From assembly GCF_021729155.1 (NCBI RefSeq), contig NZ_JAJQYA010000043.1, forward strand, positions 1 to 38,616: DNA of 38,616 nucleotides. Direction: 5' to 3'. How positions within the stretch are numbered: position 1 is the first letter of the stretch; every line of letters begins with the position of its first letter. The position numbers and the translations under genes were made by a program. This DNA comes from Membranihabitans marinus. GTDB lineage: Bacteria; Bacteroidota; Bacteroidia; Chitinophagales; Saprospiraceae. The notes under the pieces are model-generated. The model searched no databases and was not told where the DNA came from. It worked only from the letters and a program-made list of their open reading frames with translations. Below, in pieces: positions 12,180 to 38,616 of the stretch.

Positions 12180-12213
12180 CACCTTTCGTTAATAACAGAA
12201 AAATCAAAGTCTA

Positions 12214-14728: not shown

Positions 14729-14764
14729 TGTATAGCTGGTTTTGGGAAATATTCCAATGTGTGT

Positions 14765-14790: not shown

Positions 14791-15474
14791 ATAAAACCTT
14801 GGAATCTTTCTAAAAAGTGAATAAAATACTGAAACGAGCTAGAAATCCATGAAAAAATTAAAGGACATATTTTTTATTATAATTCTTATGCCTATGACCG
14901 ATAAAGCATATTTATAAATGTAAAAATTTGATTCGATAAATGTAATAATGAAAAGATTTTCTAATCCATCTTTGGCGACAGTAGTTAGACCTTGGATATG
15001 TGATAAGACCATGTATACCCAGGTGGTACAATCCATGATTATTCAATATCTTGATGGTCATATTAAATGAATGAATTATTATTTTTTGAGAGTTCAATGC
15101 TAATGACGTGTTTTCATTGACTTATTGCGGGTTAATATATTTTCCTAATCATTAATTATGTCCATTATTATTGTCAATTCATTACAAACTCTTCTAAAAA
15201 ATGGAGATTGATCGATGTGTTTCAAGCCGAAGCTAGATTTTTGACATATTATATGGGTTGATTTAAGGTTCAATTTTCCAGTTAACAATCTGGTTTAATT
15301 ATATTATTTATGTTTACATAATCTTATAATTGTATGAAAGAATCTATATAGAGTTGATATTATTGGGTGAAAAGTTTGACTATAAATGATATCTTTCCAA
15401 TTCTTGTCAAAGGTCAACTAACCACATCGTCAATCGATAGTGAACCTGAGTGTTATATTAAACCAGAAGAATAA
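14791..15474. other. long AT-rich spacer before anmK
   Basis: About 0.7 kb between the divergent lipoprotein and anmK genes. Two overlapping minus-strand frames of ~60 codons (14839-15097) show no signal, motif or start context worth calling. A near-consensus -7 element TATCTTTC lies at about 15389, some 85 bp before anmK, without a -33 partner at the right spacing. Nothing else is recognisable. Confidence 0.45.
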
Positions 15475-22439: not shown

Positions 22440-22964
22440 TTAGACGAATAAGAGGATAAATATCAATAACTGGAATTCTTGATGACTCATTAAAAAATTT
22501 CTAATTATCTTCAAAGCTGCCACCATATGGTTTCTTACCGTATTGGTTGAGATATTTAACTCTTGACTAATCTCGATATAAGAAAGATTGTCTTCGCGGA
22601 TCATATTGTATATCCTCCATTGCTGTGGGGTTAGTTTTTTAAGAGCCAATCTAAAAAGTTCTCGAGTTTCTTTGTATTCTAGGTTTTGAGATACACTATT
22701 TTCGTCTTGCATATAGTCCCATAGATAGTGCATATACTTTTTGGAGTGAGCCACTTTTCGGTGATGATCGACTATGCTGTTTCGGGTAATTGTCCAGATA
22801 ACAGAACCCGAGTTGTTTAAGTCTTCTTCCGTGTACTTAGAATACAACTTAACAAATACATCATGGGTCAAATCCTCTGCCACTTCTTGACATTTGACAT
22901 GAGATAGGATAAAACCGTATATTTTTTCTTTATATTCTTTGTAAATGTCTATTTGCCAGTCCAT
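22440..22964 (-). CDS. ECF RNA polymerase sigma-70 factor
   Basis: A 174-residue sigma factor. Region 2 spans about residues 5-75, with the core-binding CQEVAEDLTHDVFVKLYSKY and the promoter-melting segment IWTITRNSIVDHHRK. Region 4 spans about 105-160, with LTPQQWRIYNMI followed by the helix-turn-helix LSYIEISQELNISTNTVRNHM. The short hydrophobic tail (LLIFILLFV) is common in Bacteroidota members of this group. The partner FecR gene starts 161 bp away on the opposite strand, and the STN-SusC follows FecR, so this sigma most likely drives the second susCD locus and its enzymes. The divergent position, rather than immediately upstream in the same direction, is a small departure from the usual order. 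Confidence 0.93.
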   Translation of the reverse strand: MDWQIDIYKEYKEKIYGFILSHVKCQEVAEDLTHDVFVKLYSKYTEEDLNNSGSVIWTITRNSIVDHHRKVAHSKKYMHYLWDYMQDENSVSQNLEYKETRELFRLALKKLTPQQWRIYNMIREDNLSYIEISQELNISTNTVRNHMVAALKIIRNFLMSHQEFQLLIFILLFV

Positions 22965-23125: not shown

Positions 23126-24100
23126 GTGCAAGATAATATAAAAAAAAGGATTTTTGAGCTTTATGTAAAATATTTAGATCAAAATATAAGCCAAAGGGAA
23201 TACGAAGAGTTATTCTATTTGATTGGAGACGAAAGGCATAAACCCATTGTGGATTCTATAATAGATGAAGCCATTGAATTTGGCTCTCTATCCAATCAAA
23301 AAGTAAAAGAAGATCAGGGCTTCACCATAACCAGAAAGGAATTGAGACCGCAGGCCAAAGACAAGAAGATACTCAATTGGACTCGCATTAGTATTGCCGC
23401 ATCCATCCTCCTTTTGTTGGCCACTTTTACCATAATTTATTATTCAATGGATCATTATGTGGTCTATACTACAGGGTACCAAGAGACTAAAAATGTAGAA
23501 TTGCCAGATGGTAGTTTAATAGTCATGAATGCTCGTTCGGAATTAAAGTGGAAGCCCGGATTCGAAAAGGAAGAAGAAAGAATCGTATATTTTAAAGGAG
23601 AGGGATATTTTGATATTTCACATATTGATGGTAAGAAATTTATTGTTGAAACCGAAGGAATCGACGTCAATGTTATCGGGACGGAATTCAATTTGGAGTC
23701 GAGGCAAGATATTACCAATGTGTATTTAAAAGAAGGAAAGGTCGTTTTGAAAGGGGATAAAATAAAGCCTATAGAAATGGTGCCTGGAGATTTGGTGACC
23801 TATGACCAAAGGAGTAATCAAGTCAATGTGCTGTCCCAGCAACGAGCCGATGTCAATGAGTCATGGAAGGATGGACTGTTTACTTTTATGGACAAGACAG
23901 GGGTTCAGATTCTAGAAAAGATGACCGACATATACGGGAAAGAATTTGAGATTAGAGATTCATCTGGTCTAAAAGATATTATTGTAGTACAGGGTCTGCC
24001 CTATGCAGATTGGGATTTTACCAAAGTCGCCTTAGAGCTCACCTTAGGCGTAAAATTGACAGAGTCTATTTCAAATAAAATTATCGTCGAGAAAAAATAG
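23126..24100 (+). CDS. FecR-family anti-sigma factor / sigma regulator
   Basis: A 324-residue inner-membrane protein. The N-terminal ~80 residues are the cytoplasmic sigma-binding part, a single transmembrane helix covers about 87-106 (ISIAASILLLLATFTIIYY), and the periplasmic FecR domain follows (~111-210, with VELPDGSLIVMNARSELKW and VYFKGEGYFDIS). The last ~75 residues fit DUF4974, the STN-interacting domain. It holds the ECF sigma inactive until the STN-SusC reports substrate. The start is a GTG at 23126 (no ATG fits the start of the conserved N-terminus). It is followed by the STN-SusC gene after 27 bp, so co-transcription is expected. Confidence 0.93.
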   Translation: MQDNIKKRIFELYVKYLDQNISQREYEELFYLIGDERHKPIVDSIIDEAIEFGSLSNQKVKEDQGFTITRKELRPQAKDKKILNWTRISIAASILLLLATFTIIYYSMDHYVVYTTGYQETKNVELPDGSLIVMNARSELKWKPGFEKEEERIVYFKGEGYFDISHIDGKKFIVETEGIDVNVIGTEFNLESRQDITNVYLKEGKVVLKGDKIKPIEMVPGDLVTYDQRSNQVNVLSQQRADVNESWKDGLFTFMDKTGVQILEKMTDIYGKEFEIRDSSGLKDIIVVQGLPYADWDFTKVALELTLGVKLTESISNKIIVEKK

Positions 24101-24127: not shown

Positions 24128-27100
24128 ATGAAATTAGGATTTTTACTTAAAAAGTGGTCCTTATATGGGATGTTTATGCTCTTACTTCTGAATATTCCCA
24201 TGACCTTGGAGGCCAAAGACCGAGGTAGGGAAATGAGTTTAGAGGAAGCAATACAGCAAATTAGCGTGCAGTATGGGGTATATTTTACCTATAATAAGCG
24301 ACTGATTAATGACTTTAGGGTGGACTTTGATGTCGACATGGAATTGAGCTTAGAAGATGCAGTCAATAAAGTATTGTCGAAGACTTCTCTACATTATAAG
24401 ATACACGCCGACAAATACGTAATCATATACAAAACGGATAGAGAAGGCATAGAATCATTGAAAGAGATGGTGAAACATCTCGAAATACTAATTGATTTAG
24501 AAGAGAAAAAGAATAGAAAAAGGATTTCTTTGCTTCCAACTAAATCTATTAAATCTTCTTTTGAAATCCGAAATAAGCGATTGGTGATTAATACTGCTGG
24601 AGTGGTGACCGATCAATCCGGTCAGCCCCTTATCGGAGTCAATGTTTTGGTTAAGGGAAGTGACATTGGAACGGCTACTGATTTTGATGGTCGATTTACC
24701 TTGGAAGATATCGATGAAAATGCCGTATTGGTAGTGTCTTATGTCGGTTATGTGACTCAAGAAATTCCCGTATTGGGAAAGTCCAACCTTCAAGTGGTTT
24801 TATTGTCGGATTCTGAATTATTGGACGAAGTCGTTGTCGTGGGATATGGAACACAGCGAAAAGGCGAGTTGACGGTAGCGGTTTCCCAAATAAAGGGAGA
24901 AGATATTGAATCCATTCAAGCCACTTCTTTTATGGATCTTATCGGTGGTCGAGCAGCTGGTGTTGATGTAGTGTCAGGTTCAGGCGCACCGGGTTCTGGA
25001 AGTACGATAAGAATAAGGGGAGCCAATTCTATTAATTCAAATTCTGATCCTCTCTATGTCATTGATGGATTTCCCGTAATTGAGGATGCCGAGGACAATT
25101 TTTCTAATTCGAAATTGGGAACCAAGACAGATCCATTGTCCATGATTAACCCCAATGATATAGCTTCTATAGAAATATTGAAAGATGCAGCTGCTACCTC
25201 CATTTATGGTTCGAGAGGAGCCAATGGAGTAATATTGATTACGACGAAGAAAGGAGGGGCTGGGAAAAGCGAGATTCAGCTGACGGCCAATGTAGGTATA
25301 CAGCAAATGTCCAACAACTATGAGATGATGAATGCTACTGATTTTTCACATTATCTATACGATGCCTATGATAGAGGTGGGATTGATATGGAAAATCTTG
25401 GTTTTGATCCATCTAGGCAATTGGCTATTCCAACGGATTACAATACTGATTGGGTAGATGAAATAACTCGTACGGCCAAAGTTCAGCAATACGATTTGTC
25501 TTTTAAAGGCTCTAATAATTCCTCTAAATACGGAGGGTCGATCGGCTACCTCAACAATGAAGGTATCATTAAATCCAATTTTTACGAGCGTTTTTCAGCG
25601 CGATTTAATGGAGATATTAAAGGTTGGGAGGACAGAATTGTCGTAGGACTAAACGTAAATATGTCCTATGTAAATCAAAATTCACATTATGGAGTCACAA
25701 ATACAGCATTAACCAATGCCTTGAGAAAGGCTCCTAATATTCCAGTTCGATTTCCAGCTGGTAGCAAATACGCGGGTTATTATTCTCATAGTGAAACTGA
25801 GGCCGAATGGGATGTGTTGTGGGGTGATGGATATGGAGTGGCTTCATCTACCGCTTTAAATCTCGCCTCTCCTTTTCAATATATTGACCATATACAATCC
25901 CCAGCTAACCAAGCTAGGTTGTTGACCAATGGTTATTTTAGTATTGAGCCCATAGATGGATTGGTTTTTAAAACATCGGCGGGTACAGATTTGAATTATT
26001 CTAAATCTAAGTTCTTAAATCAAAGTGATGGACCATTTAGGATACCGAATGGAGACTTACAACACGATCAAACCCAAACCACCAGTTGGTTGATAGAAAA
26101 TACAGTAACCTTTTCTAAGCAATTCGGTCAGCATTCTTTCAATTTATTGGGAGGACAATCGGCTCAAAAATACTACCAAGAAGGTCTGGGTTGGTGGGTC
26201 CAAGAGCAAACCGCTGGAGAAGTCTTGGTGGCCAATAATCCATTCTTTGTCGATGGTTGGTATTTTGATACTGGGGTAGAGGATCATTTGTCCTCCAATC
26301 ATAAATACGCCACCGTTAATGAATTTACTGTAGCCTCTTATTTCGGACGATTAAACTATTCATTTGACAACAAATATTTGTTGACAGCTACCTTGCGAAA
26401 GGATGGATCATCCAAATTTGGTAAGAATAGTAAATGGGGTACTTTTCCCGGATTGTCGATGGCTTGGAATATACATGAAGAGAACTTCTATAATGTCGAT
26501 TTTGTCGATCAGTTAAAAGTAAGAGGAAGTTGGGGTATCGTAGGCAACGGCAATATTCCACCCTATCTCTCTCAAGCTCTCTTGGTGAAGCGGCCGGCAT
26601 TTTTAATTGGTGCGGTGATTTCTGGCACAGGGATCTATGAGCAGAGTCTAGTAGACCCAGGTCTTTCGTGGGAATCGACACAGCAATATGATTTTGGTTT
26701 CGATGCCATTTTGTTTAATCGTTTAAGTGTAACTTCCGATATCTATTTTAAGAAAACCTTTGACTTGCTGTATCCTTTGATCTTGCCTCAATCCACTGGT
26801 TTCTCTAGTATTACCATGACAAATTTGGGGTCATTGAACCAAGTAGGTGTAGAACTAACTTTGTCGGGCGATATCATTCCTGCCAAGAGAGCCGACGGGT
26901 TTAACTGGTTTGCTTCTTTGAATATCGATCACTCAAAAGGAAAAATCACCGAATTGCCTGACAATGTTGATTGGGTCGGAAATAATATTAGAAGTTATCT
27001 CAATCAACCCATCGGTGAATTGTATGGATACAAAGTGGCCGGAATTTACAATACTCAGGCCGAACTCGACTCCCCTGACAATCCCTATTCCAATGCACAG

Positions 27101-27715
27101 TTGGGAGATTATAGGTATGAGGATATAGGGAGTACAGATGAAAATGGAAACTTTGTCAATTTGCCAGATGGCAATATTACTGCAGCTGATAGAACCAATC
27201 TAGGAAGTACAGTGCCCGTATTGAGTCTGGGTTTTCACAATTCGATATCCTTCGGAAATTTTGATGTAAACTTGTTTTTTAGATCTTCCATAGGTAATAA
27301 AGTGTACAATCAAGCCAAGAGGGAATTGTTAGATGCCAATGGCAGCTATAATTTGATGGCAGAGGCCGTGAATAGATGGACGCCGGAGAACCACAATCAA
27401 GAGATTCAAGCTGCCAATAGTAATCGAAGAAACCCCACTGGTTCAGCACCTCTGGATATCTTTATTGAAGATGGTTCCTATCTAAGACTTTCAAATGTAA
27501 ACTTGGGCTATAGTTTTCCGCAGAATATTCTCAAAAGTGTTGGGTGTAAATCTATTCGGCTGTATTTGAGTATCAATAATGCATTTGTGTTGACTGGATA
27601 TTCTGGCTTAGATCCTGAGATAAGTGGAGGAGATGTTTTGGTGTCAAGAGGTATTGACGTAACGACTTATCCGAAGACAAGGACTTATTCTTCTGGTTTG
27701 AGTATCAGTTTCTAA
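24128..27715 (+). CDS. SusC/RagA TonB-dependent transporter with STN signalling domain
   Basis: A 1195-residue outer-membrane transporter and signal transducer. In order: signal peptide (to about residue 29), STN domain (~37-101; MSLEEAIQQISVQYGVYFTY and LSLEDAVNKVLSKTSLHYKI), a charged linker (~103-150), a carboxypeptidase-regulatory-like domain (~157-228), TonB-box-like DEVVVVGYG (233-241), a plug (~247-375, with DAAATSIYGSRGANGVILITT), and the barrel. The STN domain reaches into the periplasm to contact FecR, so substrate transport is coupled to sigma release. It lies between fecR (27 bp) and susD2 (34 bp) on the same strand. The substrate is likely a fucose-containing or acetylated glycan, judging from the enzymes downstream (inference). 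Confidence 0.95.
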   Translation: MKLGFLLKKWSLYGMFMLLLLNIPMTLEAKDRGREMSLEEAIQQISVQYGVYFTYNKRLINDFRVDFDVDMELSLEDAVNKVLSKTSLHYKIHADKYVIIYKTDREGIESLKEMVKHLEILIDLEEKKNRKRISLLPTKSIKSSFEIRNKRLVINTAGVVTDQSGQPLIGVNVLVKGSDIGTATDFDGRFTLEDIDENAVLVVSYVGYVTQEIPVLGKSNLQVVLLSDSELLDEVVVVGYGTQRKGELTVAVSQIKGEDIESIQATSFMDLIGGRAAGVDVVSGSGAPGSGSTIRIRGANSINSNSDPLYVIDGFPVIEDAEDNFSNSKLGTKTDPLSMINPNDIASIEILKDAAATSIYGSRGANGVILITTKKGGAGKSEIQLTANVGIQQMSNNYEMMNATDFSHYLYDAYDRGGIDMENLGFDPSRQLAIPTDYNTDWVDEITRTAKVQQYDLSFKGSNNSSKYGGSIGYLNNEGIIKSNFYERFSARFNGDIKGWEDRIVVGLNVNMSYVNQNSHYGVTNTALTNALRKAPNIPVRFPAGSKYAGYYSHSETEAEWDVLWGDGYGVASSTALNLASPFQYIDHIQSPANQARLLTNGYFSIEPIDGLVFKTSAGTDLNYSKSKFLNQSDGPFRIPNGDLQHDQTQTTSWLIENTVTFSKQFGQHSFNLLGGQSAQKYYQEGLGWWVQEQTAGEVLVANNPFFVDGWYFDTGVEDHLSSNHKYATVNEFTVASYFGRLNYSFDNKYLLTATLRKDGSSKFGKNSKWGTFPGLSMAWNIHEENFYNVDFVDQLKVRGSWGIVGNGNIPPYLSQALLVKRPAFLIGAVISGTGIYEQSLVDPGLSWESTQQYDFGFDAILFNRLSVTSDIYFKKTFDLLYPLILPQSTGFSSITMTNLGSLNQVGVELTLSGDIIPAKRADGFNWFASLNIDHSKGKITELPDNVDWVGNNIRSYLNQPIGELYGYKVAGIYNTQAELDSPDNPYSNAQLGDYRYEDIGSTDENGNFVNLPDGNITAADRTNLGSTVPVLSLGFHNSISFGNFDVNLFFRSSIGNKVYNQAKRELLDANGSYNLMAEAVNRWTPENHNQEIQAANSNRRNPTGSAPLDIFIEDGSYLRLSNVNLGYSFPQNILKSVGCKSIRLYLSINNAFVLTGYSGLDPEISGGDVLVSRGIDVTTYPKTRTYSSGLSISF

Positions 27716-27749: not shown

Positions 27750-29408
27750 ATGAAAAATTTATTATATCTATATATTTTATTCTTTCTATTTACGTCTTGT
27801 AGTACAGAGTTTTTAAAAGAGGAGCATCCGGTTCAGAGTACCAGTGAAACTTTTTTTACTTCAGATGCCGATGCGGAAGCTGCTGCTATTGGATTATACG
27901 AATACACGCGCAATCTTTATTTTGGTCGTGATATGGTAGAACACTTTGCTTCCAATTTCGATATATTTATGGGGGATAATGTGACCTTGCCTAGAAATTT
28001 TTATAAGAATTCTATTGTTCCATGGTTGACCTTAAATTTTAATCCCGAAAATGGATCTGTTCAGCAAGCTTGGGCTACGACATACACTACCATCTATCGA
28101 GCCAATTGGATTATTGAAAATCTGACCGACAACGACGCCATTTCGGAAGCTGTAAAGAACAAGGCTTTGTCTGAAGCCTATTTTTTTCGCGGTTTTTGCT
28201 ATTTTAATTTAACGAGGTATTTTGAAGAAGTTCCCATTGTGTTAGAAGTGACCAATGATGACAACTTGTATCCGGAAAAGTCGAGTAATGAGGAATGTTG
28301 GAATCAAGTCTTTACTGATTTTGAAAAATCCTTGTCCCTAGGAGGTCTTCCTGCACCGACCCAAAACTTTGTCGATGGTAGAATCAATACAGGTGTTGCC
28401 AATGCTATTATGGCTAGGGCGTATTTATATCGCACTGAGCCGGGATCGGACCAATATTGGGATAAGGTAAAAGAATATACTTCTGCTGTTGAAAATTTAG
28501 GCGCATATGATTTGGAACCCATTGATGATTTTTCTAAATATTTTGTTTACACCAATGGAGATAAATGGGTTGAAAATAGGGAAATGATATGGGTTCACGG
28601 TTTTAGTTATGGTTCGACCTATGGAGGATTGCCTTTCCTCTATGATGGTAAAAATTATGCTACTTTGGCTTACATGTCCATGCCTGTGGGATATAATACA
28701 GGACTGTTAAAAAATGATAAGGGAAAATCATATCTTGTGGGTAATGGATTGACTGGCCGAGCTTATTATGCAGCGAGTAAAAGTTTGTCTGATTTAATGA
28801 TCGATTATTTTAACAAGGGGGATCAGAGAACATCTGAATATTTAATGTATCCAAGTTTTAATAGTTATGCACTAGATGGTGATGCAGTCGTGGTAAAGGA
28901 GACAGTGGATAGTGATTCTCTTTATCAAAAACTGGTAGAGAGTAATGGCAGTGCAGGAGAATATATTCACGTGAAAAAATTTGAGATCCGTGAATTTGTA
29001 GGTGAAAATATATGGGATGGCGGATTTAATCATTCCATGGTCTTCCCCATCATTAGATATGGTGATATTATGCTTATGCGAGCCGAGGCTGAATATCATT
29101 TGGGCAATGAAGCCGAGGCTAGAAGTTATTTGAAATACATAACAGATAGAGCTGGTTTTGCTGCGGATTACTTAGATCAGTTTTCGGGGCAAGATTTGTT
29201 GGATGAGATCTTAAAACAGCGCAGGGTGGAGCTTTTTATGGAGAGCTTGAGAGTGCCTGATCTAAAGCGATTGGGACAGTTTAAATCGCCGAATATTGGG
29301 ACTTTTCCCGGTTCGGCCAATTTTGAGGAAAAATTTACTGTTTTGCCTATTCCACGACGTGAATTGGATGCCAATCCAAATCTTGTCCAGCACAGTTTAT
29401 GGAGATAA
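27750..29408 (+). CDS. SusD/RagB-family glycan-binding lipoprotein
   Basis: A 552-residue surface lipoprotein (signal ending FTSC, Cys17, followed by STEFLKEEHPVQST). SusD landmarks include NKALSEAYFFRGFCYFNLTRYFEEVPIV in the N-terminal TPR-like half, and the C-terminal signature IIRYGDIMLMRAEAEYHLGNEAEARSYLKYITDRAGF followed by LLDEILKQRRVELFMESLRVPDLKRLG. It pairs with the STN-SusC immediately upstream and would capture oligosaccharide at the cell surface. Sequence identity to the first SusD in this window is visibly low outside these signatures, so the two pairs are not a recent duplication and should have different substrates. Confidence 0.94.
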   Translation: MKNLLYLYILFFLFTSCSTEFLKEEHPVQSTSETFFTSDADAEAAAIGLYEYTRNLYFGRDMVEHFASNFDIFMGDNVTLPRNFYKNSIVPWLTLNFNPENGSVQQAWATTYTTIYRANWIIENLTDNDAISEAVKNKALSEAYFFRGFCYFNLTRYFEEVPIVLEVTNDDNLYPEKSSNEECWNQVFTDFEKSLSLGGLPAPTQNFVDGRINTGVANAIMARAYLYRTEPGSDQYWDKVKEYTSAVENLGAYDLEPIDDFSKYFVYTNGDKWVENREMIWVHGFSYGSTYGGLPFLYDGKNYATLAYMSMPVGYNTGLLKNDKGKSYLVGNGLTGRAYYAASKSLSDLMIDYFNKGDQRTSEYLMYPSFNSYALDGDAVVVKETVDSDSLYQKLVESNGSAGEYIHVKKFEIREFVGENIWDGGFNHSMVFPIIRYGDIMLMRAEAEYHLGNEAEARSYLKYITDRAGFAADYLDQFSGQDLLDEILKQRRVELFMESLRVPDLKRLGQFKSPNIGTFPGSANFEEKFTVLPIPRRELDANPNLVQHSLWR

Positions 29409-29537: not shown

Positions 29538-30305
29538 ATGATGAAATTTTTATGTTTTCTTGTCTGTAGTCTATTGACTATTAGTATGCTTCGAGGACAA
29601 GATGATTCCAGTAAGTATTTCAAACTCGTAAATGGGGGAGAAGGATCGAATAAATATCGGATAGAGTTAAATTCCGATGTGGATACCAGTTGGAGTAAAT
29701 GGCATCATCGTGGCTATAGTTTTGGATTTGATCCCAGCCAGACTCCTATGTATACTCAAGTCAACGGAATATTGAGCACTCCCTATATGATACAGGTTCG
29801 GGGTAATGAAATGGAAAAAAACAAAAAAAGATGGGGATATCACGTCTTTGAAGGATTTGCTCAAGATGATAATTCCAGAATTACTATGTTGGTAAACAAA
29901 CATGTGGAGTTGGGTAAGCCCGTAGCAGAGATGTATTATTACGGAACGGAGTACAATCACTCGGCATTGGCCTATAATTGGTTTCGGATAGGTTCCGATG
30001 TTCGGCAACACTCCTATTTGTTTAGTCGGGATCAAGCCATATTCTATGGATCGCTGACCCTGTCTAATGCCCTTACCTTGGGGAGAATAGGAAGTGATAA
30101 TATCCTAGAGAAAGAACCGGAAGGAGATAGTGAAAAATATTATAAAGAGAGCGCTAAATATGTGAATTACTCTTCCCTCAAGGACAGTGAAGATGGGACA
30201 ATTTTTTATGACAAGGACAATGACATCGTCGTCATAAAGATAAAGGGGAAATGGATGAAATTGGCAGTAGAACCACTGCCAGAAAATATAAACTATAAAT
30301 TTTAG
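29538..30305 (+). CDS. secreted protein of unknown function
   Basis: A 255-residue protein that I do not recognise. It has a signal peptide (residues 1-21, SLLTISMLRGQ). The mature part is polar and aromatic-rich, with many short beta-like stretches. Residues ~155-185 (ALAYNWFRIGSDVRQHSYLF and QAIFYGSLTLSNALTLGRIG) have the rhythm of the beta-helical tail-fibre-like proteins seen in Bacteroidota, and the C-terminal IVVIKIKGKWMKLAVEPLP is a small beta sandwich-like end. A role in binding or holding the locus substrate outside the cell is possible, from its place right after susD2 and before the GH29-like gene, but no function can be assigned. The gene starts just after a strong hairpin. Confidence 0.75.
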   Translation: MMKFLCFLVCSLLTISMLRGQDDSSKYFKLVNGGEGSNKYRIELNSDVDTSWSKWHHRGYSFGFDPSQTPMYTQVNGILSTPYMIQVRGNEMEKNKKRWGYHVFEGFAQDDNSRITMLVNKHVELGKPVAEMYYYGTEYNHSALAYNWFRIGSDVRQHSYLFSRDQAIFYGSLTLSNALTLGRIGSDNILEKEPEGDSEKYYKESAKYVNYSSLKDSEDGTIFYDKDNDIVVIKIKGKWMKLAVEPLPENINYKF

Positions 30306-30495: not shown

Positions 30496-30537
30496 TCCAA
30501 AGGTGTTGCAATGCCATTTACTAAAAATATAAATAAT

Positions 30538-31908
30538 ATGAAAAATGTACTTTTTAGTCTATTGACTATGACTTGTATAATCACGGCTAATTCGTGTGTG
30601 GATGGGGGCCAGGAAGCAGACCAAAGTAATGAAGTCTTGCCTACTGCCGCACAAGTAGCTTGGGCAGAAGCCGAAGTAGGAGCGATGTTTCACTTAGACG
30701 TTCAGGTCTTTGAGCCCGATTACAAATGGAGGGAAACCAGGGACTATCAACCAGATCCTTCGGTTTTCAATCCCAAAGATCTCGATACCGATCAATGGAT
30801 ATCTACAGCCAAGGCAGGAGGAGCCAATTATGCTATTTTGGTTGCCAAGCACTGTAGTGGATTTAGTCTTTGGCCTACCAAGGCTCACGATTACAGTGTG
30901 AAGAGTTCACCTTGGAGGAATGGTGAGGGCGACATTGTTAGGGATTTTATTGAATCTTGTAAAAAATACGGTGTAAAACCCGGTTTATACGCCAGTGCTT
31001 CAGCCAATGCATATTATCATGTGGACAATCCAGGCTTAGTATTGTCCGGTGATTCTGCAGAACAAGAAATTTATAATGAAGTAGTCAAGACCCAATTGAC
31101 TGAATTGTGGAGTGAATATGGCGATTTATTTGAAATATGGTTTGATGGAGGTGTACTACCTCCAGAAAAGGGCGGTATTGATGTGCATACATTGGTCAAT
31201 AAGTATCAGCCTAATACCATTGCCTTTCAAGGTCCATTTGGTTATGAGAACAATATAAGATGGGTGGGCAATGAAGATGGAGTCGCCCCGTATCCTTGTT
31301 GGTCACGCGCCGACTCTACTACTACAGCTACTGGGATGATTCAGATCAAGGGCTTGAATGGCAATCCTGATGGTGCATATTGGTGTCCTGGTGAGGCGGA
31401 TTTTGCATTGAGGCAACACGCTTTTCAGGGCGGTTGGTTTTGGCATGAAGGAGAAGAGGATAAGATTAGATCATTAGATAATTTAATGGCGAGATATGTA
31501 GAATCGGTAGGCAGAAATACCAATTTGCTATTGGGAGTAGTGATCGATGATCGCGGATTGATACCGGCTGCAGATTCGATACGCATTGTCGAATTTGGAA
31601 AAGAAGTAGAACGAAAATTTTCTAATTCCTTGGCCTATGGAAGTGCAAAAGGCCCAAGCTTATCATTAGAATTTTCTCAAGTCCAACCTGTGAATTACGT
31701 AGTAATAGAAGAAGATATCTCTAAAGGAGAGCGAATCAGAGAATATAGTCTCTATGGTATGAAGGATGGAAACTGGGAATTGGTCAGCGAGGGAAGCTCT
31801 GTGGGCAATAAGAGGATAGAAGTGGTGAATGGAAGTAGCTATAGTGGAGTTAAAATGGAGGTGACCAAAATGAGTGCGGAACCTCATTTTGAAATTAATG
31901 TATACTAA
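30538..31908 (+). CDS. GH29-like alpha-L-fucosidase lipoprotein
   Basis: A 456-residue lipoprotein. The ATG at 30538 gives a clean signal ending ITANSC; an in-frame ATG at 30511 only adds nine residues. The catalytic barrel (~40-355) shows the GH29 order: DTDQWISTAKAGGANYAILVAKHCSGFSLWPT, YSVKSSPWRNGEGDIVRDFIESCKKYGVKPGLY, and the nucleophile in FEIWFDGG (Asp203). The family's usual KHHDGF is KHCSGF here, so one conserved histidine is replaced. The last ~95 residues form a discoidin-like sandwich (NYVVIEEDISKGERIREYSLYG). The same barrel plus sandwich recurs in the 1040-residue fusion three genes downstream. Expected role: removal of terminal alpha-L-fucose or a related 6-deoxysugar from glycan fragments at the surface or in the periplasm. 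Galactosidase-type activity in this clan is an alternative. Confidence 0.85.
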   Translation: MKNVLFSLLTMTCIITANSCVDGGQEADQSNEVLPTAAQVAWAEAEVGAMFHLDVQVFEPDYKWRETRDYQPDPSVFNPKDLDTDQWISTAKAGGANYAILVAKHCSGFSLWPTKAHDYSVKSSPWRNGEGDIVRDFIESCKKYGVKPGLYASASANAYYHVDNPGLVLSGDSAEQEIYNEVVKTQLTELWSEYGDLFEIWFDGGVLPPEKGGIDVHTLVNKYQPNTIAFQGPFGYENNIRWVGNEDGVAPYPCWSRADSTTTATGMIQIKGLNGNPDGAYWCPGEADFALRQHAFQGGWFWHEGEEDKIRSLDNLMARYVESVGRNTNLLLGVVIDDRGLIPAADSIRIVEFGKEVERKFSNSLAYGSAKGPSLSLEFSQVQPVNYVVIEEDISKGERIREYSLYGMKDGNWELVSEGSSVGNKRIEVVNGSSYSGVKMEVTKMSAEPHFEINVY

Positions 31909-31988: not shown

Positions 31989-33404
31989 ATGCGTATTTAT
32001 TGTTGGTGTAGACGGCTTGATGTTGAATTTTCTTCTGTCAAGAGTAGGATGGTTCTCATTTATTTGGCTGTATTGTTCTGTGGTGTGTTGAAGGGTCAGG
32101 AAGGTTTACGAAGTTTTCAAAATGATATTTGCCTTCCCAGTGTATTGTATATGTTATCGGAAACAGAAAATGATATTTTTGTGGAACCTCTAATGAAAAG
32201 GTGGAGGCCATACAACGATGTGGTGAGGTTTTCCGGTTCTGTTGACTACACGAGGCGATTGCAGAGAGTGGCCAGTATCCATGATCCAGAGGATGGAAAT
32301 ACGATTACCTTGGAATTGGTTAATCAAGATGAGTTTAAAACCCTAAAGTCAATCACATCTACCCTAGAAGTGGGAGTATCTGGAAAGGGAAGTTCTCCCG
32401 TGACGGTATCCATCATCGGAGATAGTTTTACCCATGGTGGATTTTTCAAAGAAGCCTTGTTGGAAGGTGGTCATGTACCTTATATAAAGATGATAGGATT
32501 GCGAGAAGTCAATAATCATCCCGGTCAGTTTGATGAAGGTCGTGGTGGATGGCGATTGCAAAGTTATTTTACGGTAACCTATAAAGAAAATCAAGCATAC
32601 AACGGATTTTGGCAGCCAGAGGGGGAGAATAAGTATTGGGGATCCACTGGATTTTGGAAATTGGTTATGGAAATTGATGCTCATCCCGATCGAGATTGGA
32701 GTTTTGGGCTTACCTATAATACCAGTCGATTTATTTCCAAAGCCAATCTCTATGATACTAAAACGGGATATAAAATCAATCCAGAACGTGGAGATATGAT
32801 GTACGACAACGAGGTGGATGCCTATGTGGCCTACAATGGGAAAACATGGAAGAAGGTAGATTATGATGATTTTACTTGGAGTTTTAATTACGGAAAATAC
32901 CTTTCCATGTGGGATCTAGAAAAACCGATGATATTAGCCGAATTTTTAGGTCTTAATGATTTTAGAGATCATCCAGACCCCATTAATATGGATTTTGAGA
33001 AGTGGAATGCACAAATGGAAGAAATGATAGCTTCTTATTTTAAAGCAGTGCCTGAGGGTAAATTTGTACTGATGATTCCCTCTTCTACCTGTGGTATTCT
33101 CGATAACAAGGCTGGTGATTTTACCACTAAGCAAAATGCAGCAATGTGGGAGGTTCGAAGGAATATTATAGAAAATTTTGATCATAGGCGGGAGGAAAAC
33201 ATCTTTATTGTCGATGCGGGAATTGCGATCGACAATGTGGATGGAACGAGGTTTTTGTCTGATTCTACCTACACCAAACCCTATGCCAGCTATGAAGGAG
33301 AGGAAAGGATAATGGTGCAGACAGGCAATCCCCATCCCTATCCCAATTATCCAACGATGGGAATATCCTTGGCTGCCTTTATTCAAAAACATCGAAACAA
33401 ATAG
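31989..33404 (+). CDS. secreted SGNH/GDSL-family hydrolase
   Basis: A 471-residue protein (451 if the ATG at 32049 is used, which would give a shorter, cleaner signal peptide MVLIYLAVLFCGVLKGQ; the choice is uncertain). After a ~120-residue N-terminal beta region comes the SGNH catalytic domain: block I SIIGDSFTHGG (Ser146), the Asn block AEFLGLNDFRDHP, and a C-terminal block with His in GNPHPYPNYPTMGISLAAF. SGNH enzymes of this size in glycan loci are mostly carbohydrate O-deacetylases. It lies between two GH29-like genes and before a second SGNH gene, so removal of acetyl or other ester groups that block fucosidase or transport is the natural guess. The substrate is not determined. Confidence 0.8.
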   Translation: MRIYCWCRRLDVEFSSVKSRMVLIYLAVLFCGVLKGQEGLRSFQNDICLPSVLYMLSETENDIFVEPLMKRWRPYNDVVRFSGSVDYTRRLQRVASIHDPEDGNTITLELVNQDEFKTLKSITSTLEVGVSGKGSSPVTVSIIGDSFTHGGFFKEALLEGGHVPYIKMIGLREVNNHPGQFDEGRGGWRLQSYFTVTYKENQAYNGFWQPEGENKYWGSTGFWKLVMEIDAHPDRDWSFGLTYNTSRFISKANLYDTKTGYKINPERGDMMYDNEVDAYVAYNGKTWKKVDYDDFTWSFNYGKYLSMWDLEKPMILAEFLGLNDFRDHPDPINMDFEKWNAQMEEMIASYFKAVPEGKFVLMIPSSTCGILDNKAGDFTTKQNAAMWEVRRNIIENFDHRREENIFIVDAGIAIDNVDGTRFLSDSTYTKPYASYEGEERIMVQTGNPHPYPNYPTMGISLAAFIQKHRNK

Positions 33405-33477: not shown

Positions 33478-34335
33478 ATGGAAAATAGAAATTGTCGGAT
33501 TAATGGGTTTATGCGAGTTATAAATCTTCAATGGTTAATATTGATAGCCTTTTTATGTTTTGTTCTCCCCGTTGGGGCTCAGATTCAAAAGAAAGGAAAA
33601 GGTGTTGAATTGACTACAGAGGTCGAGAATTCTGCCATTATTCCCGTGTCTAAGTTGGAAGAGGATTCTTATGATTACTGGGATCGCCATCATGAAGTAT
33701 TGAGGATAAAGGATTCTATTAATCCAGAAATAGTGCTGATCGGGAATTCCATCACCCATTTCTGGGGAGGGGAACCAAAGCTGAAATTTGCCGACGGTAG
33801 GCCTAGAAAACCAAACGGTCCTACTTCTTGGAATTCGGTTTTTGGCCATCATCGATTGCTCAATTTGGGTTTTGGATGGGATCGTACGCAGAATGTACTA
33901 TGGCGGATAGATCAAGGTCAACTCGATGGAATTCAGCCCCAATTGGTCGTCATTCATATAGGAACCAACAATACCAGTGAAACCAAAAACGCCAGGAAGA
34001 ATACAGCTGTCGAAATTGTTGAGGGTATTGAAGCCATTTGTAATCGTGTGCAAAACAAGCTTCCTCAAGCCAAAATTGTTTTAATGGCCATCATGCCTAG
34101 AGAGGAGACCGCTCAACATGAACGGAGGATCTTGATCGATCAAACCAATAATTTATTGAAGGAATATGCCAAAAGGAATCAGATTACTTTGTTGGATATA
34201 GGACCTAGAATGTTGACGCCCGGGGGTGTTTTGACACGTGACATTGCCGGTGATTTTTGTCACCCTACGGATAAGGGCTATCAAATATGGGCCGATGCTT
34301 TGCGTCCCTATGTTGCTGAATTTGTAAAAAAATAG
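33478..34335 (+). CDS. secreted GDSL/SGNH esterase, PAF-acetylhydrolase-like
   Basis: A 285-residue protein with a signal peptide (hydrophobic core ~18-34, ending LPVGAQ; the ATG at residue 12 is an alternative start). The full SGNH set is present: block I IVLIGNSITHFWGG (Ser91), Gly in LNLGFGWDRTQNVLWRI, block III VVIHIGTNNTSE (Asn164), and block V DIAGDFCHPTDKGYQIW (Asp259, His262). This arrangement matches the PAF-acetylhydrolase beta/gamma-type lipase-GDSL family, which in Bacteroidota glycan loci acts as a sugar O-acetylesterase. It is 26 bp before the large fusion gene and on the same strand, so co-transcription is likely. Confidence 0.88.
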   Translation: MENRNCRINGFMRVINLQWLILIAFLCFVLPVGAQIQKKGKGVELTTEVENSAIIPVSKLEEDSYDYWDRHHEVLRIKDSINPEIVLIGNSITHFWGGEPKLKFADGRPRKPNGPTSWNSVFGHHRLLNLGFGWDRTQNVLWRIDQGQLDGIQPQLVVIHIGTNNTSETKNARKNTAVEIVEGIEAICNRVQNKLPQAKIVLMAIMPREETAQHERRILIDQTNNLLKEYAKRNQITLLDIGPRMLTPGGVLTRDIAGDFCHPTDKGYQIWADALRPYVAEFVKK

Positions 34336-34361: not shown

Positions 34362-37300
34362 TTGAAAATCAAATCATTACCATTGAATTTATTTTTTGTT
34401 AAACAGAGAGGTTATCTGCTGTTGATATTGCTTCAATTGATAGGGTATAAGGGTGTTTCTCAAAATGAAATTCGAATTGCTTGTGTAGGCAATAGTATTA
34501 CTTACGGTGCCAAGGTTGAAAATAGGGAGGTCAATAGCTATCCTGCCCAGCTGGCATCAATGTTGGGAGAGGGCTATACCGTGGGCAATTTTGGACGAAG
34601 TGGAGCAACATTGTTGAAAAAGGGCGATTATCCATATTGGGAGACCAGTCAATATCAGCAGGCCCTGGATTTTAATCCCGATTATGTGTTTATTAAATTG
34701 GGGACGAATGATACCAAACCGCAAAATAGGAAATACATCGATGAAGATTATGTGAAGGATTACAAGGCATTGATTCATTCTTTTAAATCACTGTCGTCCA
34801 ATCCTCGGATTGTATTGTTGCTGCCCGTGCCGGTGTTTTCCAGTGATACAACTGGGATAACGGCCAAGGTGTTGACTGAAAAATTGATACTAATGATTCG
34901 CCAATTGGCTTATGAAACCGGTAGTGAAGTCATTAATTTATATAATTTAATGATAGACCAACCGGAATTGTTTCCAGATAAGGTACATCCTTCAGCAGCT
35001 GGGGCAAAGGTGATGGCTAGACGAATATACGATGTGGTGAAAATGCAGCCAGTATCCTATGACCTTTCTGCGGCCATACCTAAGGATGCTCAAACATTTA
35101 ATTTTCACGGATACCGTGGATTTGAGTATACATTTTCGGGAAGGACGGTTAAGGTGGTATTGCCAAAAGTGACGGCCAAGGGACATCCTTGGGTTTGGCG
35201 GGCTCGATTTTGGGGCCACGAACCACAGGCCGATATCGCTTTGTTGGAGCGAGGATATCACATTGCGTTTTGTGATGTTGCAGAGTTATTTGGCAATGAT
35301 GAGGCCATGACTATTTGGGATGGATTTTATCAGTTTTTGACCGGAGCTGGGTTGGCTAAAAAATCGATAATGGAAGGTATGAGCCGGGGAGGAGTATATA
35401 TCTATCGTTGGGCAGCCCGATATCCGGACCGAGTGGCTGGTATTTATGCCGATGCCCCAGTTTTGGATCTTAAGAGTTGGCCGGGAGGTCGGGGTTCCAG
35501 CAAGGGCAGTCCAGCGACATGGGAGACTTTTAAAAAGGATTTTGGATTTGATAGCGATGAAGAAGCTGAGAGATTTAATGGGAATCCTGTGGACTTGACC
35601 GAGGTTTTGTCGAAATCCGATATCCCGATGTTGCACGTAGTGGGAGATGCCGATGATGTGGTGCCAGTCGATGAAAATACTGGACCATTTGCCGAAAAAA
35701 TAAATGCCGGTGGTGGGTTAATCAATGTAATTCACAAGCCAGGTATTGGACATCATCCCCACAGTTTAGAAAATCCACAGCCCATTGTTGATTTTGCCCT
35801 AAGGTGTACAGACTATTTAACAACCAACGATTTGATTGCTAAGCCCTCTCAGCCACAACTGGATTGGTTTGATTACGAAAATTTAATGTTTATTCACTAT
35901 GCGCCCAATACGTGGACGGGATTGAGTCAGGATGACAATTCTCTGCCCTTGGATCGCATCAATCCCAAGAAAATGGATACTGACCAATGGTGTAAGGTAG
36001 CTAAGTCTTGGGGAGCGGAGATGATCGTATTTGTGGCCAAGCATTCTGGGGGATTTTGTTGGTGGCAAACCAATACTACGGAATACAGTGCTCGAAATAT
36101 TCCATGGGAAAATGGAGAGGGTGATTTGCTGGCCGATATATCGGCATCGTGCAAAAAATACGGATTGGAATTGGGGGTATATATTTATCCCGGTGATCGC
36201 CAATGGGGTGCAGGTCTAGGTAGTGGAGGGAAGACGGAAGATCCCAATAAGCAAGAGGCCTATAATGAAGTATTTAGAAAGCAATTGAAGGAGGTGTTGT
36301 CCCAATATCATCCTATGAAAGAGGTTTGGTTTGATGGGAGCTGTGTAATTGAAATCGGTGATATTTTGGAGGAGTATGCCAGCGATGCCGTAATATTTCA
36401 GGGACCGCAAGCCACCATCCGTTGGGTGGGCAACGAAAGGGGAATAGCACCTTACCCCAATTGGTACACGGTAAGTAATGCAGATATTAAGACGGGACGG
36501 GCAAATGCTTTAAATTCTGACCCTCGGGGTGAGTATTTTGCACCGGTGGAAATGGATGTTCCTTTTCTGATGAGTGGTAAAGGACATCGTTGGTTTTGGT
36601 CATCGAATACCGATAGTTTGATTTTGACTATTCCGGAATTGATGAATATTTATGACAAATCTGTGGGGCGGGGCGGTGTTCTGTTGTTGAATGCTACTCC
36701 TGATACTACTGGATTAATACCCAAGTCTCATGTGAAGCAATACAAGGCTTTTGGCAAGGCATTGAAAAAGCGGTTTTCAAAGCCATTGGCCTCTGGATCG
36801 GGATCCAATGTGATTACCTTGGATTTGGGCCGTGAAAAGATGGTGAATCAAGTGGTTATACAGGAAGATATCAGTGAAGGCCAATTGGTTATGAAATACG
36901 AATTGGAGGGATTTGCGAATGGCCAATGGCATAAAATCAAGGATGGTCAGTCTATTGGGCATAAACGTATTGATGAGTTTCCAGCCCAGAGTTTGTCAAT
37001 GATCAGACTTAAGATTACCGATGCTTTGGCCAATCCAGTGATTACTCATTTTTCGGTCTACAATAATGCCAAGATGTCTACGGGAAAGAAAGGTGAAGAG
37101 GGAAGTAAGATCTATTCAGTGGGCAATTGGTCGACGAGTGATTATACAGAGGAATGGCAGGAATACAGTTTTGATCTTACTCCATATTTGGAGGAGAAAG
37201 TAGGGCAATTTGAATTGAAGTTTATGAAAATCGATCACGACCGGGCTTTTGAGAAATCGAATACGGGTGGATATGGAATCGAATTTATGGATTGGACCTT

Positions 37301-37484
37301 GGAAGTTCACGGTACAGACAATCCACAGTCAGTTGAAAAGGTGGGGAATGGATTGTTTCACATCGACCATTCACAGCATATTACGGCAGACATGAAGGCC
37401 AAAATTTTATTTAAGACTAAGATTAAAAGGCGTCCTGGCAGGGCAGTTGGCGTCATTGATTTGAGGATGGTAGGGGTTAATTAG
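34362..37484 (+). CDS. three-enzyme fusion: SGNH esterase, alpha/beta hydrolase, GH29-like fucosidase
   Basis: A 1040-residue secreted protein. The start is a TTG at 34362, which alone includes the signal peptide (LLLILLQLIGYKGVSQ); the next ATG is at residue 67 or later, inside the first domain. Domain 1 (~36-230): SGNH hydrolase with Ser45 in CVGNSITYG, GTNDTKP, and Asp206/His209 in DKVHPSAAGA. Domain 2 (~235-490): alpha/beta hydrolase with the nucleophile elbow GMSRGG (Ser341), acid in VVGDADDVVP and His in GIGHHPHS. Domain 3 (~498-795): GH29-like barrel with the nucleophile in EVWFDGS (Asp658) and KHSGGF in place of KHHDGF. Then come a discoidin-like sandwich (~800-903) and a C-terminal beta domain (~905-1040). 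All three catalytic centres look intact. It would couple de-esterification with deglycosylation on one substrate. It is the last gene of the locus. Confidence 0.88.
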   Translation: MKIKSLPLNLFFVKQRGYLLLILLQLIGYKGVSQNEIRIACVGNSITYGAKVENREVNSYPAQLASMLGEGYTVGNFGRSGATLLKKGDYPYWETSQYQQALDFNPDYVFIKLGTNDTKPQNRKYIDEDYVKDYKALIHSFKSLSSNPRIVLLLPVPVFSSDTTGITAKVLTEKLILMIRQLAYETGSEVINLYNLMIDQPELFPDKVHPSAAGAKVMARRIYDVVKMQPVSYDLSAAIPKDAQTFNFHGYRGFEYTFSGRTVKVVLPKVTAKGHPWVWRARFWGHEPQADIALLERGYHIAFCDVAELFGNDEAMTIWDGFYQFLTGAGLAKKSIMEGMSRGGVYIYRWAARYPDRVAGIYADAPVLDLKSWPGGRGSSKGSPATWETFKKDFGFDSDEEAERFNGNPVDLTEVLSKSDIPMLHVVGDADDVVPVDENTGPFAEKINAGGGLINVIHKPGIGHHPHSLENPQPIVDFALRCTDYLTTNDLIAKPSQPQLDWFDYENLMFIHYAPNTWTGLSQDDNSLPLDRINPKKMDTDQWCKVAKSWGAEMIVFVAKHSGGFCWWQTNTTEYSARNIPWENGEGDLLADISASCKKYGLELGVYIYPGDRQWGAGLGSGGKTEDPNKQEAYNEVFRKQLKEVLSQYHPMKEVWFDGSCVIEIGDILEEYASDAVIFQGPQATIRWVGNERGIAPYPNWYTVSNADIKTGRANALNSDPRGEYFAPVEMDVPFLMSGKGHRWFWSSNTDSLILTIPELMNIYDKSVGRGGVLLLNATPDTTGLIPKSHVKQYKAFGKALKKRFSKPLASGSGSNVITLDLGREKMVNQVVIQEDISEGQLVMKYELEGFANGQWHKIKDGQSIGHKRIDEFPAQSLSMIRLKITDALANPVITHFSVYNNAKMSTGKKGEEGSKIYSVGNWSTSDYTEEWQEYSFDLTPYLEEKVGQFELKFMKIDHDRAFEKSNTGGYGIEFMDWTLEVHGTDNPQSVEKVGNGLFHIDHSQHITADMKAKILFKTKIKRRPGRAVGVIDLRMVGVN

Positions 37485-37485: not shown

Positions 37486-37531
37486 AATGGTCAATTGTTA
37501 ATTGTTAGTTGTTGATTATCAATGGTCAATT
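37486..37531. repeat. TAATTG-rich simple sequence
   Basis: AATGGTCAATT occurs at 37486-37496 and 37521-37531 with TTAATTGTTAGTTG-like filler between. Such low-complexity TAATTG tracts commonly flank transposase-derived repeats in Bacteroidota; here it marks the boundary between the fusion gene and the RAYT repeat array. Confidence 0.5.
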
Positions 37532-37865
37532 AGAAGGATCGTAGAGGCGCAAAATCTTGCGTCTCCTCGTCTTGTTTTTCGTCCTGTCTGTCATTATTTT
37601 CAATCATGACAATACCATGAATGTGATTAGGCATTGTGATATGTGGACCCAATTGTACAAAAGGGAAATGATTAGGTATTTCGTGCCAACATGAATTCGC
37701 GATATGTCCAATAGCCGACATGGACATCTTTCCTTGGGATATATCACCAAAAAATAAATCTCGATTTTGTGTGCAAATGGTTATAAAATACGCAGCATTC
37801 CAACCATAGTTCCAAAAAGAAGCACGAATGGAGGCAATGCGATATTTATGTTGATATTTGCCCAT
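37530..37865 (-). pseudogene. internally deleted REP-associated tyrosine transposase (RAYT), copy A
   Basis: A 111-codon frame starting MGKYQHKYRIASIRASFWNY, with the Y1/RAYT landmarks AAYFITICTQNRDLFFG and the HUH motif MPNHIHGIV (the two metal-binding His). After IENNDRQDEKQDEETQD the frame runs straight through a REP-like hairpin (encoding QDFAPL) and stops. The C-terminal part of the family, with the catalytic-tyrosine helix (YYDHIIRNE type), is missing, so the protein should be inactive. An upstream in-frame ATG at 37901 is not kept in copy B and is not preferred. Confidence 0.8.
37544..37565. repeat. REP-like hairpin 1 (inside copy A frame)
   Basis: GAGGCGCAA/AATC/TTGCGTCTC forms a 9-bp stem with one G-T wobble and a 4-nt loop. 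It lies inside the reading frame of RAYT copy A, about 12 bp from its stop codon. Confidence 0.7.
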
Positions 37866-37924
37866 TATATTTAAACATAAGATGTCAATCACAAATTCCA
37901 TTATGACAAATTAACTACCCTATT

Positions 37925-37944
37925 AGACGCAAAATCTTGCGTCT
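37925..37944. repeat. REP-like hairpin 2
   Basis: AGACGCAA/AATC/TTGCGTCT, an 8-bp perfect stem with a 4-nt loop, followed by CTACAATGGG. It lies between the C-terminal RAYT remnant and the start of copy A, the normal place of a REP flanking its transposase. Confidence 0.75.
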
Positions 37945-37974
37945 CTACAATGGGTGATATGAAAAATGATAAAT

Positions 37975-38013
37975 CTATGTGTTATATATTTTATCTTCTA
38001 TCCAATGTAAATG
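37975..38013 (-). pseudogene. C-terminal RAYT remnant between the two truncated copies
   Basis: The minus strand encodes LHWIEDKIYNT and a stop at 37975-37977, identical to the end of the transposase fragment at the right edge of the window (38482-38616). A few codons before it (INNH in place of IDNP) are still recognisable, then similarity stops. This shows that copy B lost its middle and catalytic-tyrosine part but kept its last codons. Confidence 0.7.
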
Positions 38014-38017
38014 ATTA

Positions 38018-38371
38018 TTAATTATTAATGGTTAATTCAAAGCATCGTAAAGACCCAATGTCTTGCGTCTCCTCGTCTTGTTTTTCGTCTTGTCTGTCAT
38101 TATTTTCAATAATGACAATACCATGAATGTGATTAGGCATTATGATATGTGGATCCAATTGTACAAAAGGAAAATGGTTAGGGTTTTCGTGCCAACATGA
38201 ATTTGCGATGTGTCCAATAGCCGACATGGACATCTTTCCTTGGGATATATCACCAAAAAATAATTCTCGATTTTGTGTGCAAATGGTTATAAAATACGCA
38301 GCATTCCAAGCATAATTCCAAAAAGAAGCACGAATGGAGGCACTGCGATATTTATGTTGATATTTGCCCAT
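38018..38371 (-). pseudogene. internally deleted REP-associated tyrosine transposase (RAYT), copy B
   Basis: A 117-codon frame nearly identical to copy A (MGKYQHKYRSASIRASFWNY, AAYFITICTQNRELFFG, HUH motif MPNHIHGIV), again passing IENNDRQDEKQDEETQD and a degraded REP hairpin, then ending in ELTINN. The catalytic-tyrosine helix is absent. Differences from copy A are scattered substitutions, so the duplication is not brand new. Confidence 0.8.
38051..38070. repeat. REP-like hairpin 3 (degraded, inside copy B frame)
   Basis: AGACCCAA/TGTC/TTGCGTCT: the same 8-bp stem as the other copies with one C-C mismatch and an altered loop. It sits at the homologous place to hairpin 1 and is also read through by the transposase frame. 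Confidence 0.55.
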
Positions 38372-38431
38372 TATAATTTAAACATTAGTTGTCAATCACA
38401 AATTCCATTATGACAAATTAACTACCCTATT

Positions 38432-38451
38432 AGACGCAAAAACTTGCGTCT
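38432..38451. repeat. REP-like hairpin 4
   Basis: AGACGCAA/AAAC/TTGCGTCT, an 8-bp perfect stem with loop AAAC, followed by CTACAATGGG as at hairpin 2. It lies between the stop codon of the right-edge transposase and the start of copy B. Confidence 0.75.
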
Positions 38452-38481
38452 CTACAATGGGTGATATGAAAAATGATAAAT

Positions 38482-38616
38482 CTATGTGTTATATATTTTA
38501 TCTTCTATCCAATGTAATGGATTATCAATAATGTATGCTGATATTTTGTGATAGGATTTTTCATTTCGGATAATATGGTCGTAATATCCCGATTGCCACT
38601 GAAATTTTGGATTTAT
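38482..38616 (-). CDS. C-terminal end of a RAYT transposase (5' part beyond the window)
   Basis: The minus strand is open for 44 codons from the right edge to TAG at 38482-38484. It reads FQWQSGYYDHIIRNEKSY followed by HKISAYIIDNPLHWIEDK, the typical RAYT C-terminus with the catalytic-tyrosine helix (YYDHIIRNE). Whether this copy is full length cannot be seen; if it is, it would be the parent of the two deleted copies next to it. RAYTs are single-strand HUH enzymes that act on REP hairpins like those here. Confidence 0.8.
   Translation of the reverse strand: MNPKFQWQSGYYDHIIRNEKSYHKISAYIIDNPLHWIEDKIYNT

Follow-up and report, generated by a model that had tools for sequence, protein, structure and literature searches.

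A rare, predicted three-site enzyme joins SGNH, alpha/beta-hydrolase and GH29 modules in one chain in Membranihabitans marinus

Fused esterases are represented among PUL enzymes by BoCE6-CE1 and FjCE6-CE1, acetyl-feruloyl esterases in which two domains are present within one Bacteroidetes PUL protein, as presented in the sections of the source cited here (PMC7110780). The corresponding sections on BeCE15A-Rex8A present this CE15-GH8 protein as a rare fusion of an esterase with a GH domain in a PUL (PMC8417218). According to the same portions of these papers, synergy occurs in some fused PUL enzymes (PMC7110780) and is absent in others (PMC8417218). An esterase and a fucosidase are also brought together by a Xanthomonas xyloglucan locus, wherein, in the excerpt cited, a CE20 acetylesterase and a GH95 fucosidase share as substrate a glycan that is both fucosylated and acetylated (PMC8245568). 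For SGNH and alpha/beta-hydrolase (ABH) enzymes, the cited portion of a further source gives Ser-His-Asp triads as the catalytic machinery (PMC9487903).

The window analyzed here, by which we mean the whole stretch of 38,616 nucleotides, includes a gene whose predicted product combines both esterase types with a GH29 domain. The order of domains in this fusion protein is signal peptide, SGNH, ABH, GH29, F5/8C and a C-terminal beta-rich region (CT), with the following locations.

34362..37484, plus strand: SGNH-ABH-GH29-F5/8C-CT fusion gene, 1040 aa, putative TTG start
34362..34463, plus strand: candidate signal peptide, residues ~1-34, read by eye
34470..35051, plus strand: SGNH (GDSL) esterase domain, residues 37-230, with S45, G78, N116, D206 and H209
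35079..35819, plus strand: ABH domain, residues 240-486, with S341 in GMSRG, D431 and H465
35832..36797, plus strand: GH29 catalytic domain, residues 491-812, with D658 as putative nucleophile and E692 as putative acid/base
36798..37070, plus strand: F5/8 type C (discoidin-like) domain, residues 813-903
37074..37481, plus strand: C-terminal beta-rich region, residues 905-1040, without a Pfam match and with a low-confidence model

The plus-strand frame at 34362-37484 comprises 1040 codons with zero internal stops, and the remaining two forward frames hold 66 and 85 stops over the same interval. The putative TTG start is located 26 bases past the stop of the preceding gene, and no ATG is present in the six codons between this TTG and the upstream in-frame stop. 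By eye, the candidate signal peptide is a hydrophobic N-terminus ending VSQ in which a lipobox Cys was not seen; AlphaFold2 models this stretch at low pLDDT, with a helix at 15-26. Residues 1-490 and 485-1040 were modeled separately as two parts, because a joint alignment placed GH29 rows over the SGNH region.

A sequence-only reading of this DNA had proposed three apparently intact active sites in one secreted chain. Indeed, the continuous frame, the Pfam domains, the predicted folds and the conserved catalytic residues all agree with three intact-looking sites. Pfam matches SGNH, ABH and GH29 within the one ORF, and each of the three is folded in the two AlphaFold2 part models. The catalytic residues named at that time (S45, D206, H209, S341 and D658) were correct, and their partners can now be numbered as D431, H465 and E692.

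The SGNH domain matches Lipase_GDSL_2 at residues 41-216 (4e-25 in the Pfam scan of the whole protein) and carries SGNH family blocks I, II, III and V (Ser, Gly, Asn and DxxH) as S45, G78, N116 and D206/H209. It is weakly similar by sequence to acetyl xylan esterases (4oap, 5e-4), and residues 29-221 align with the C-terminal part (267-458) of the AxeA1 model NF042968 (8.8e-53), where a score of 179.2 bits against a cut-off of 700 bits places the protein outside AxeA1 membership. The ABH domain has the GxSxG motif, the Ser-Asp-His residues and the predicted fold of an alpha/beta hydrolase. Its match to Peptidase_S9 in the whole protein (334-480, 2.6e-4) reaches 21.0 bits versus a cut-off of 22.6, and the ABH piece scanned alone exceeds that cut-off with 24.7 bits. 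The model of residues 1-490 (37 alignment rows) has a mean pLDDT of 88.0 and comprises two well-formed domains, SGNH and ABH. Its best Foldseek matches, which by name correspond to the ABH part, are acylaminoacyl and other S9 peptidases together with acetyl xylan esterase 6fkx. By sequence, the ABH domain is without a close solved relative (best E 4e-4), and the beta-propeller of S9 prolyl oligopeptidases is not found beside it; the domain N-terminal of the ABH is the SGNH. Hydrolases of both the SGNH and ABH types act through acyl-enzyme chemistry.

Conservation of the esterase residues was evaluated with 32 natural-ORF rows that match at E<=1e-20 over 400 or more of the 460 query residues; from this alignment and the GH29 alignment below, shorter matches and rows contained in other rows were left out. 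With the target counted, S45, G78, N116, D206, H209, S341 and H465 are kept in 32/32 rows and D431 in 31/32 (Asn in L055). In both alignments, invariance near the search patterns is partly chosen, since sequence patterns (KKGDYPYW, WFDYENLM and KKMDTDQW among others) served to find many of the rows.

As judged from its sequence and predicted fold, the third catalytic domain belongs to GH29 and is nearest to subfamily-B structures, and the earlier label of GH29-like thus understates the assignment. The Alpha_L_fucos match at residues 531-803 (5.6e-27) scores 95.5 bits against a cut-off of 25.2. Foldseek identifies 3gza as the best match for the GH29 model (E 1.5e-44, TM by target 0.87), and values of ~0.79-0.81 are obtained for SpGH29 (6or4), 3eyp and the B. 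infantis structures 3mo4/3ues, all of which we take to be subfamily B. The GH29A structure 9eu1 is more distant, with a TM by target of ~0.60 versus ~0.79 for 3mo4/3ues. H561, D658 and E692 are kept in 50/50 rows of an alignment that counts the target and consists of natural ORFs with a match at E<=1e-20 over 380 or more of the 550 query residues, the second GH29 of the window having been left out. In sequence alignments, D658 and E692 line up with Asp and Glu in five PDB chains; they occupy the B-type catalytic positions, the correspondence to D172/E217 of B. infantis being by motif. Retention in GH29 enzymes proceeds via a fucosyl-enzyme on Asp.

Of the two C-terminal beta domains in the sequence-only reading, the first can be assigned as F5/8, whereas the second is just suggested. 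The F5_F8_type_C match at 816-887 (2.4e-6) scores 28.1 bits, just below the cut-off of 28.2, and residues 905-1040 match no Pfam model. In the AlphaFold2 model of residues 485-1040 (15 rows, mean pLDDT 75.8), GH29 and F5/8 are folded, with block means that are uneven in the barrel (49-97), 88-97 for F5/8 and 36-59 for the last 136 residues. The C-terminal region is partly common to stand-alone GH29 relatives, up to residue 1036 in L128 and L141.

A chain of this composition could also result from an assembly or sequencing error, or from a recently lost stop codon, that joins two neighboring genes, and the fact that the full architecture was met in a single genome is in keeping with such an origin. 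The ends of stand-alone relatives, compared with the junction in the window, speak against it. Stand-alone SGNH-ABH proteins terminate 1-5 residues beyond the aligned end in nine of ten cases (17 residues in L057), and all 11 stand-alone GH29-CT rows, taken as stop-to-stop frames, carry a leader of 29-50 residues ahead of their LAKPSxxQ start. In the fusion protein, about a dozen residues lead from the last ABH helix (to 482) to PSQ (495), with no second leader or spacer between ABH and GH29. Loss of a stop codon would be expected to leave behind both a spacer and another signal peptide, and the seamless junction therefore argues against it. Moreover, base composition is broadly even across the gene (GC 0.40-0.47, third-position GC 0.40-0.45). 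An artefactual joining of genes was rejected on the basis of the seamless junction and is, in our estimate, very improbable; this junction argues for a fusion that is clean and not very recent.

The full-length protein is rare. Whole-protein searches of sampled genomes covered 1 (the window's own), 60, 396, 394, 395 and 388 genomes in overlapping draws, with E limits from 1e-3 to 1e-90; the four large searches scored no more than two candidates from each genome. Within this scope, the full-length match was limited to the window's own genome. The two other drawn genomes of the genus (G001 and G002) are without a full-length protein. Among 92 dissected loci, including 42 from one GTDB contig scan, the three domains SGNH, ABH and GH29 share a single ORF only in L001, which is the window. 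Part of the fusion protein is matched by 273 plasmid records, none of which covers 80% of it, and two pattern matches in viral contigs include no relative. One 28-kb plasmid record (OY726026.1, Phocaeicola massiliensis) has an SGNH-ABH match at 10100-11482 (query 37-495, 50% identity). Sequence and models together describe a chain that is, by prediction, a genuine and rare three-site enzyme built of known modules.

The gene is the last in a cluster wherein a SusC/SusD pair adjoins CAZyme genes, an arrangement that defines a PUL. The genes that accompany it are as follows.

22440..22964, minus strand: ECF-type sigma factor
23126..24100, plus strand: FecR family regulator
24128..27715, plus strand: SusC/RagA TonB-linked outer membrane protein, with weak, sub-cut-off FecR_C/STN matches N-terminally
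27750..29408, plus strand: SusD family protein
29538..30305, plus strand: 255-aa protein without a Pfam match and without a PDB match at E<=1
30511..31908, plus strand: second GH29 gene of the cluster
31989..33404, plus strand: 471-aa protein without a Pfam match and without a PDB match at E<=1
33478..34335, plus strand: second SGNH esterase gene, with 27-31% identity to domain three of SGNH-ABH-SGNH proteins from other loci

No sulfatase match was obtained among the 21 window proteins scanned with Pfam (of 27 ORFs of at least 120 aa). The contig ends 1.1 kb beyond the fusion gene, and the cluster may therefore be incomplete. This terminal stretch (37509-38537) consists of two tandem ~500-bp copies, 92-94% identical and spaced by 506-507, that hold a short minus-strand ORF resembling, by eye, a REP-associated transposase. 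By eye, SGNH-like blocks (GDSFT, GRGGW, GLND and NPHP) can be made out in the 471-aa protein, which has no DxxH and is possibly a divergent esterase. A 61% homologue adjoins an SGNH-ABH gene in L057, and a search of 348 genomes sampled from the order at E<=1e-15 found homologues in no genome other than that of the window. Elsewhere in the window, genes of the ROK, Gfo/Idh, glucosamine-6-phosphate isomerase-like, amidohydrolase and AnmK types (8255-16665), adjoined by a second SusC/SusD pair (2702-7764), form by their content an amino-sugar or peptidoglycan-recycling cluster.

The protein is probably an exported multicatalytic PUL enzyme that strips esters and then alpha-L-fucose from a fucosylated, O-acylated glycan. 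SGNH and ABH would remove ester groups from the fucosylated glycan, most likely O-acetyl at two different positions. GH29 would then free alpha-L-fucose through a retaining double displacement with D658 as the nucleophile and E692 as the acid/base, and the F5/8 domain probably helps to hold the sugar. Together with SusC/SusD, the second GH29 and the second SGNH, the enzyme may strip side chains from one O-acylated, fucose-bearing oligosaccharide, and the simplest biology would be that two kinds of ester block fucose release until they are removed, much as an acetylesterase and a fucosidase are paired in the xyloglucan locus of Xanthomonas (PMC8245568). The continuous frame, the predicted folds, the conserved catalytic residues and the gene order are observed; the type and positions of the esters, the substrate, the linkage, the order of steps, co-transcription and any gain from fusion are our inferences. 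The coupled de-esterase/fucosidase of the sequence-only reading is retained as the likeliest interpretation, given the PUL context and the separate fusions to GH29- and GH95-like modules; its description as processive is unsupported.

Those separate fusions, wherein the same esterase domains are joined to DUF5703/GH95 (G347) and SGNH is joined to GH29 (L061), favor a fucosylated glycan, as do the L135 and L137 loci, where beta-helix-type proteins ending in this ABH adjoin GH29-CT and GH95 genes. The neighborhoods of SGNH-ABH genes count partly for and partly against it. A separate GH29 gene (E<=1e-10) flanks none of 21 SGNH-ABH loci in one set, although L096 among these has a weaker GH29 match in its flanks (2e-7). 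In another set such a gene flanks 8/10 loci, which speaks in favor, although this share may be inflated because GH29 peptides were among the patterns used to select these loci. Overall, 23/31 SGNH-ABH loci are without a separate GH29 neighbor, and a sulfatase is near 8/31. Conversely, none of 11 GH29-CT loci has an SGNH-ABH gene; GH95 is present in four, DUF5703 in three, RhaT in five and an ABH-bearing ORF in two. Thus, the GH29-CT branch accompanies RhaT-type transport and genes of the fucosidase type, and the esterase pair has a broader use; the absence of a GH29 neighbor from the 21 loci indicates that the link of this pair to fucose is not universal.

The absence of a GH29 neighbor from those 21 loci is consistent with an arrangement in which each of the three sites works on its own part of a complex glycan, and fusion secures only equal amounts and joint export, with no coupling of deacylation to fucose release. 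The SGNH-ABH pairs found by themselves or joined to different modules (a further SGNH or CE2-like domain, or a weak GH99-like match) also fit this arrangement, as does the absence of intramolecular synergy in some fused PUL enzymes, according to the cited part of PMC8417218. We nevertheless consider it unlikely, if a serious contender, given that three separate proteins (the one encoded in the window and those of G347 and L061) link these esterase domains to GH29- or GH95-like modules.

The activities themselves could also differ from those we propose, such that GH29 acts as an alpha-L-galactosidase or with another activity of its family, or that the esterases remove non-acetyl groups (for example, feruloyl or methyl esters). 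The exo-alpha-L-galactosidase 7ljj is among the PDB sequence matches of the GH29 domain and counts against the fucosylated-glycan reading, as GH29 is not a single-activity family; the distance of the ABH domain from solved relatives by sequence, and its nearest folds among S9 peptidases and an acetyl xylan esterase, likewise leave room for other esters. Against this stand the proximity of the GH29 domain to B-type alpha-fucosidase structures and the weak match of SGNH to acetyl xylan esterases and to the SGNH part of the AxeA1 model, and we regard such a change of activity as distinctly improbable. The likelihoods given to the alternatives are not mutually exclusive.

If esters and then fucose are removed by one protein, this order can be tested in that single protein via three point mutants. 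The wider family offers natural rearrangements of the same modules. The 32 SGNH-ABH rows comprise 10 pairs that stand alone, 14 with a further SGNH domain, which resembles the gene at 33478-34335 just upstream of the fusion gene, six with another C-terminal part, one with DUF5703/GH95, and the target, which forms a branch of its own in the tree. Among the six, a second GDSL stretch is present in L146, L149 and L059 and a weak GH99-like match in L147, to which L148 and L150 are akin in length and in their place in the tree. L158 comes from the window's family and lies outside the tree; it combines a second GDSL stretch with a weak CE2_N match. The protein with DUF5703/GH95 (L094:9028-12432, G347) is an ORF of 1135 aa with SGNH, ABH and DUF5703_N/GH95 matches, the last of these partial for GH95 (9e-12). 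In two further proteins, L135:12903-16139 (1079 aa) and L137:10855-14052 (1066 aa), this ABH forms the end of the chain (46-48% identity); both cluster with the beta-helix protein L051:821-3169, and their genes are near GH29-CT, GH95 and RhaT genes.

The target GH29 falls within the GH29-CT clade (100/100) as the sister of L141 (100/98). L061, an SGNH-GH29 protein from an Ignavibacteriales MAG, has its GH29 in a distant clade, and its fusion is therefore separate from that in the window. Other GH29 ORFs of 800-812 aa (L051, L052, L058 and L060) have an N-terminal part of ~360 aa; L009, which is similar to them, has weak GH43/GH130 matches in that part.

Tentatively, and at clearly less than even odds, SGNH-ABH may be a portable carbohydrate-esterase pair joined independently to several fucosidase-type hydrolases, marking a widespread glycan whose fucose release is gated by two distinct esters, and the ABH would found its own carbohydrate esterase family. 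The joins meant are those of the pair to GH29 here and to DUF5703/GH95 in G347, of ABH alone to a beta-helix-type protein, and of SGNH alone to GH29 in Ignavibacteriota. The natural rearrangements of these modules point towards an O-acylated glycan that contains fucose and is as yet uncharacterised, and towards an ABH domain without a close solved relative by sequence.

With GH29 subfamily-B structures (3mo4/3ues from B. infantis and, grouped here by fold, 3gza and 3eyp from B. thetaiotaomicron and 6or4, which is SpGH29), the protein shares a barrel plus an F5/8-like domain, the Asp in W(F/W/M)DG and the Glu in RWxG(N/S/T)E; aligned by fold, it is 31% identical to 3gza. It differs in its N-terminal esterases, which are described for none of the matched chains, and in its extra C-terminal region. 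With the AxeA1 model NF042968, the SGNH domain shares the C-terminal part, and the other half of the model is unmatched.

BoCE6-CE1 and FjCE6-CE1, as described in the cited sections of PMC7110780, are xylan-directed and combine CE6 with CE1 without a GH domain, and BeCE15A-Rex8A, according to those of PMC8417218, has two catalytic sites, a glucuronoyl esterase and an exo-oligoxylanase. In the Xanthomonas locus the activities reside in separate proteins and are CE20 and GH95 instead of SGNH-ABH and GH29, as far as the excerpt of PMC8245568 describes them. The open-licence PMC literature, searched by titles and abstract openings, contained no SGNH-ABH-GH29 enzyme among the matches listed and no DUF5703 paper. 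The earlier view that the architecture is undescribed holds within that scope, whereas enzymes of this kind are known from the cited parts of two reports (PMC7110780, PMC8417218). PUL enzymes that are multicatalytic, of the esterase-esterase and esterase-GH types, are thus already described, and the SGNH-ABH-GH29 combination itself is a rare addition to them.
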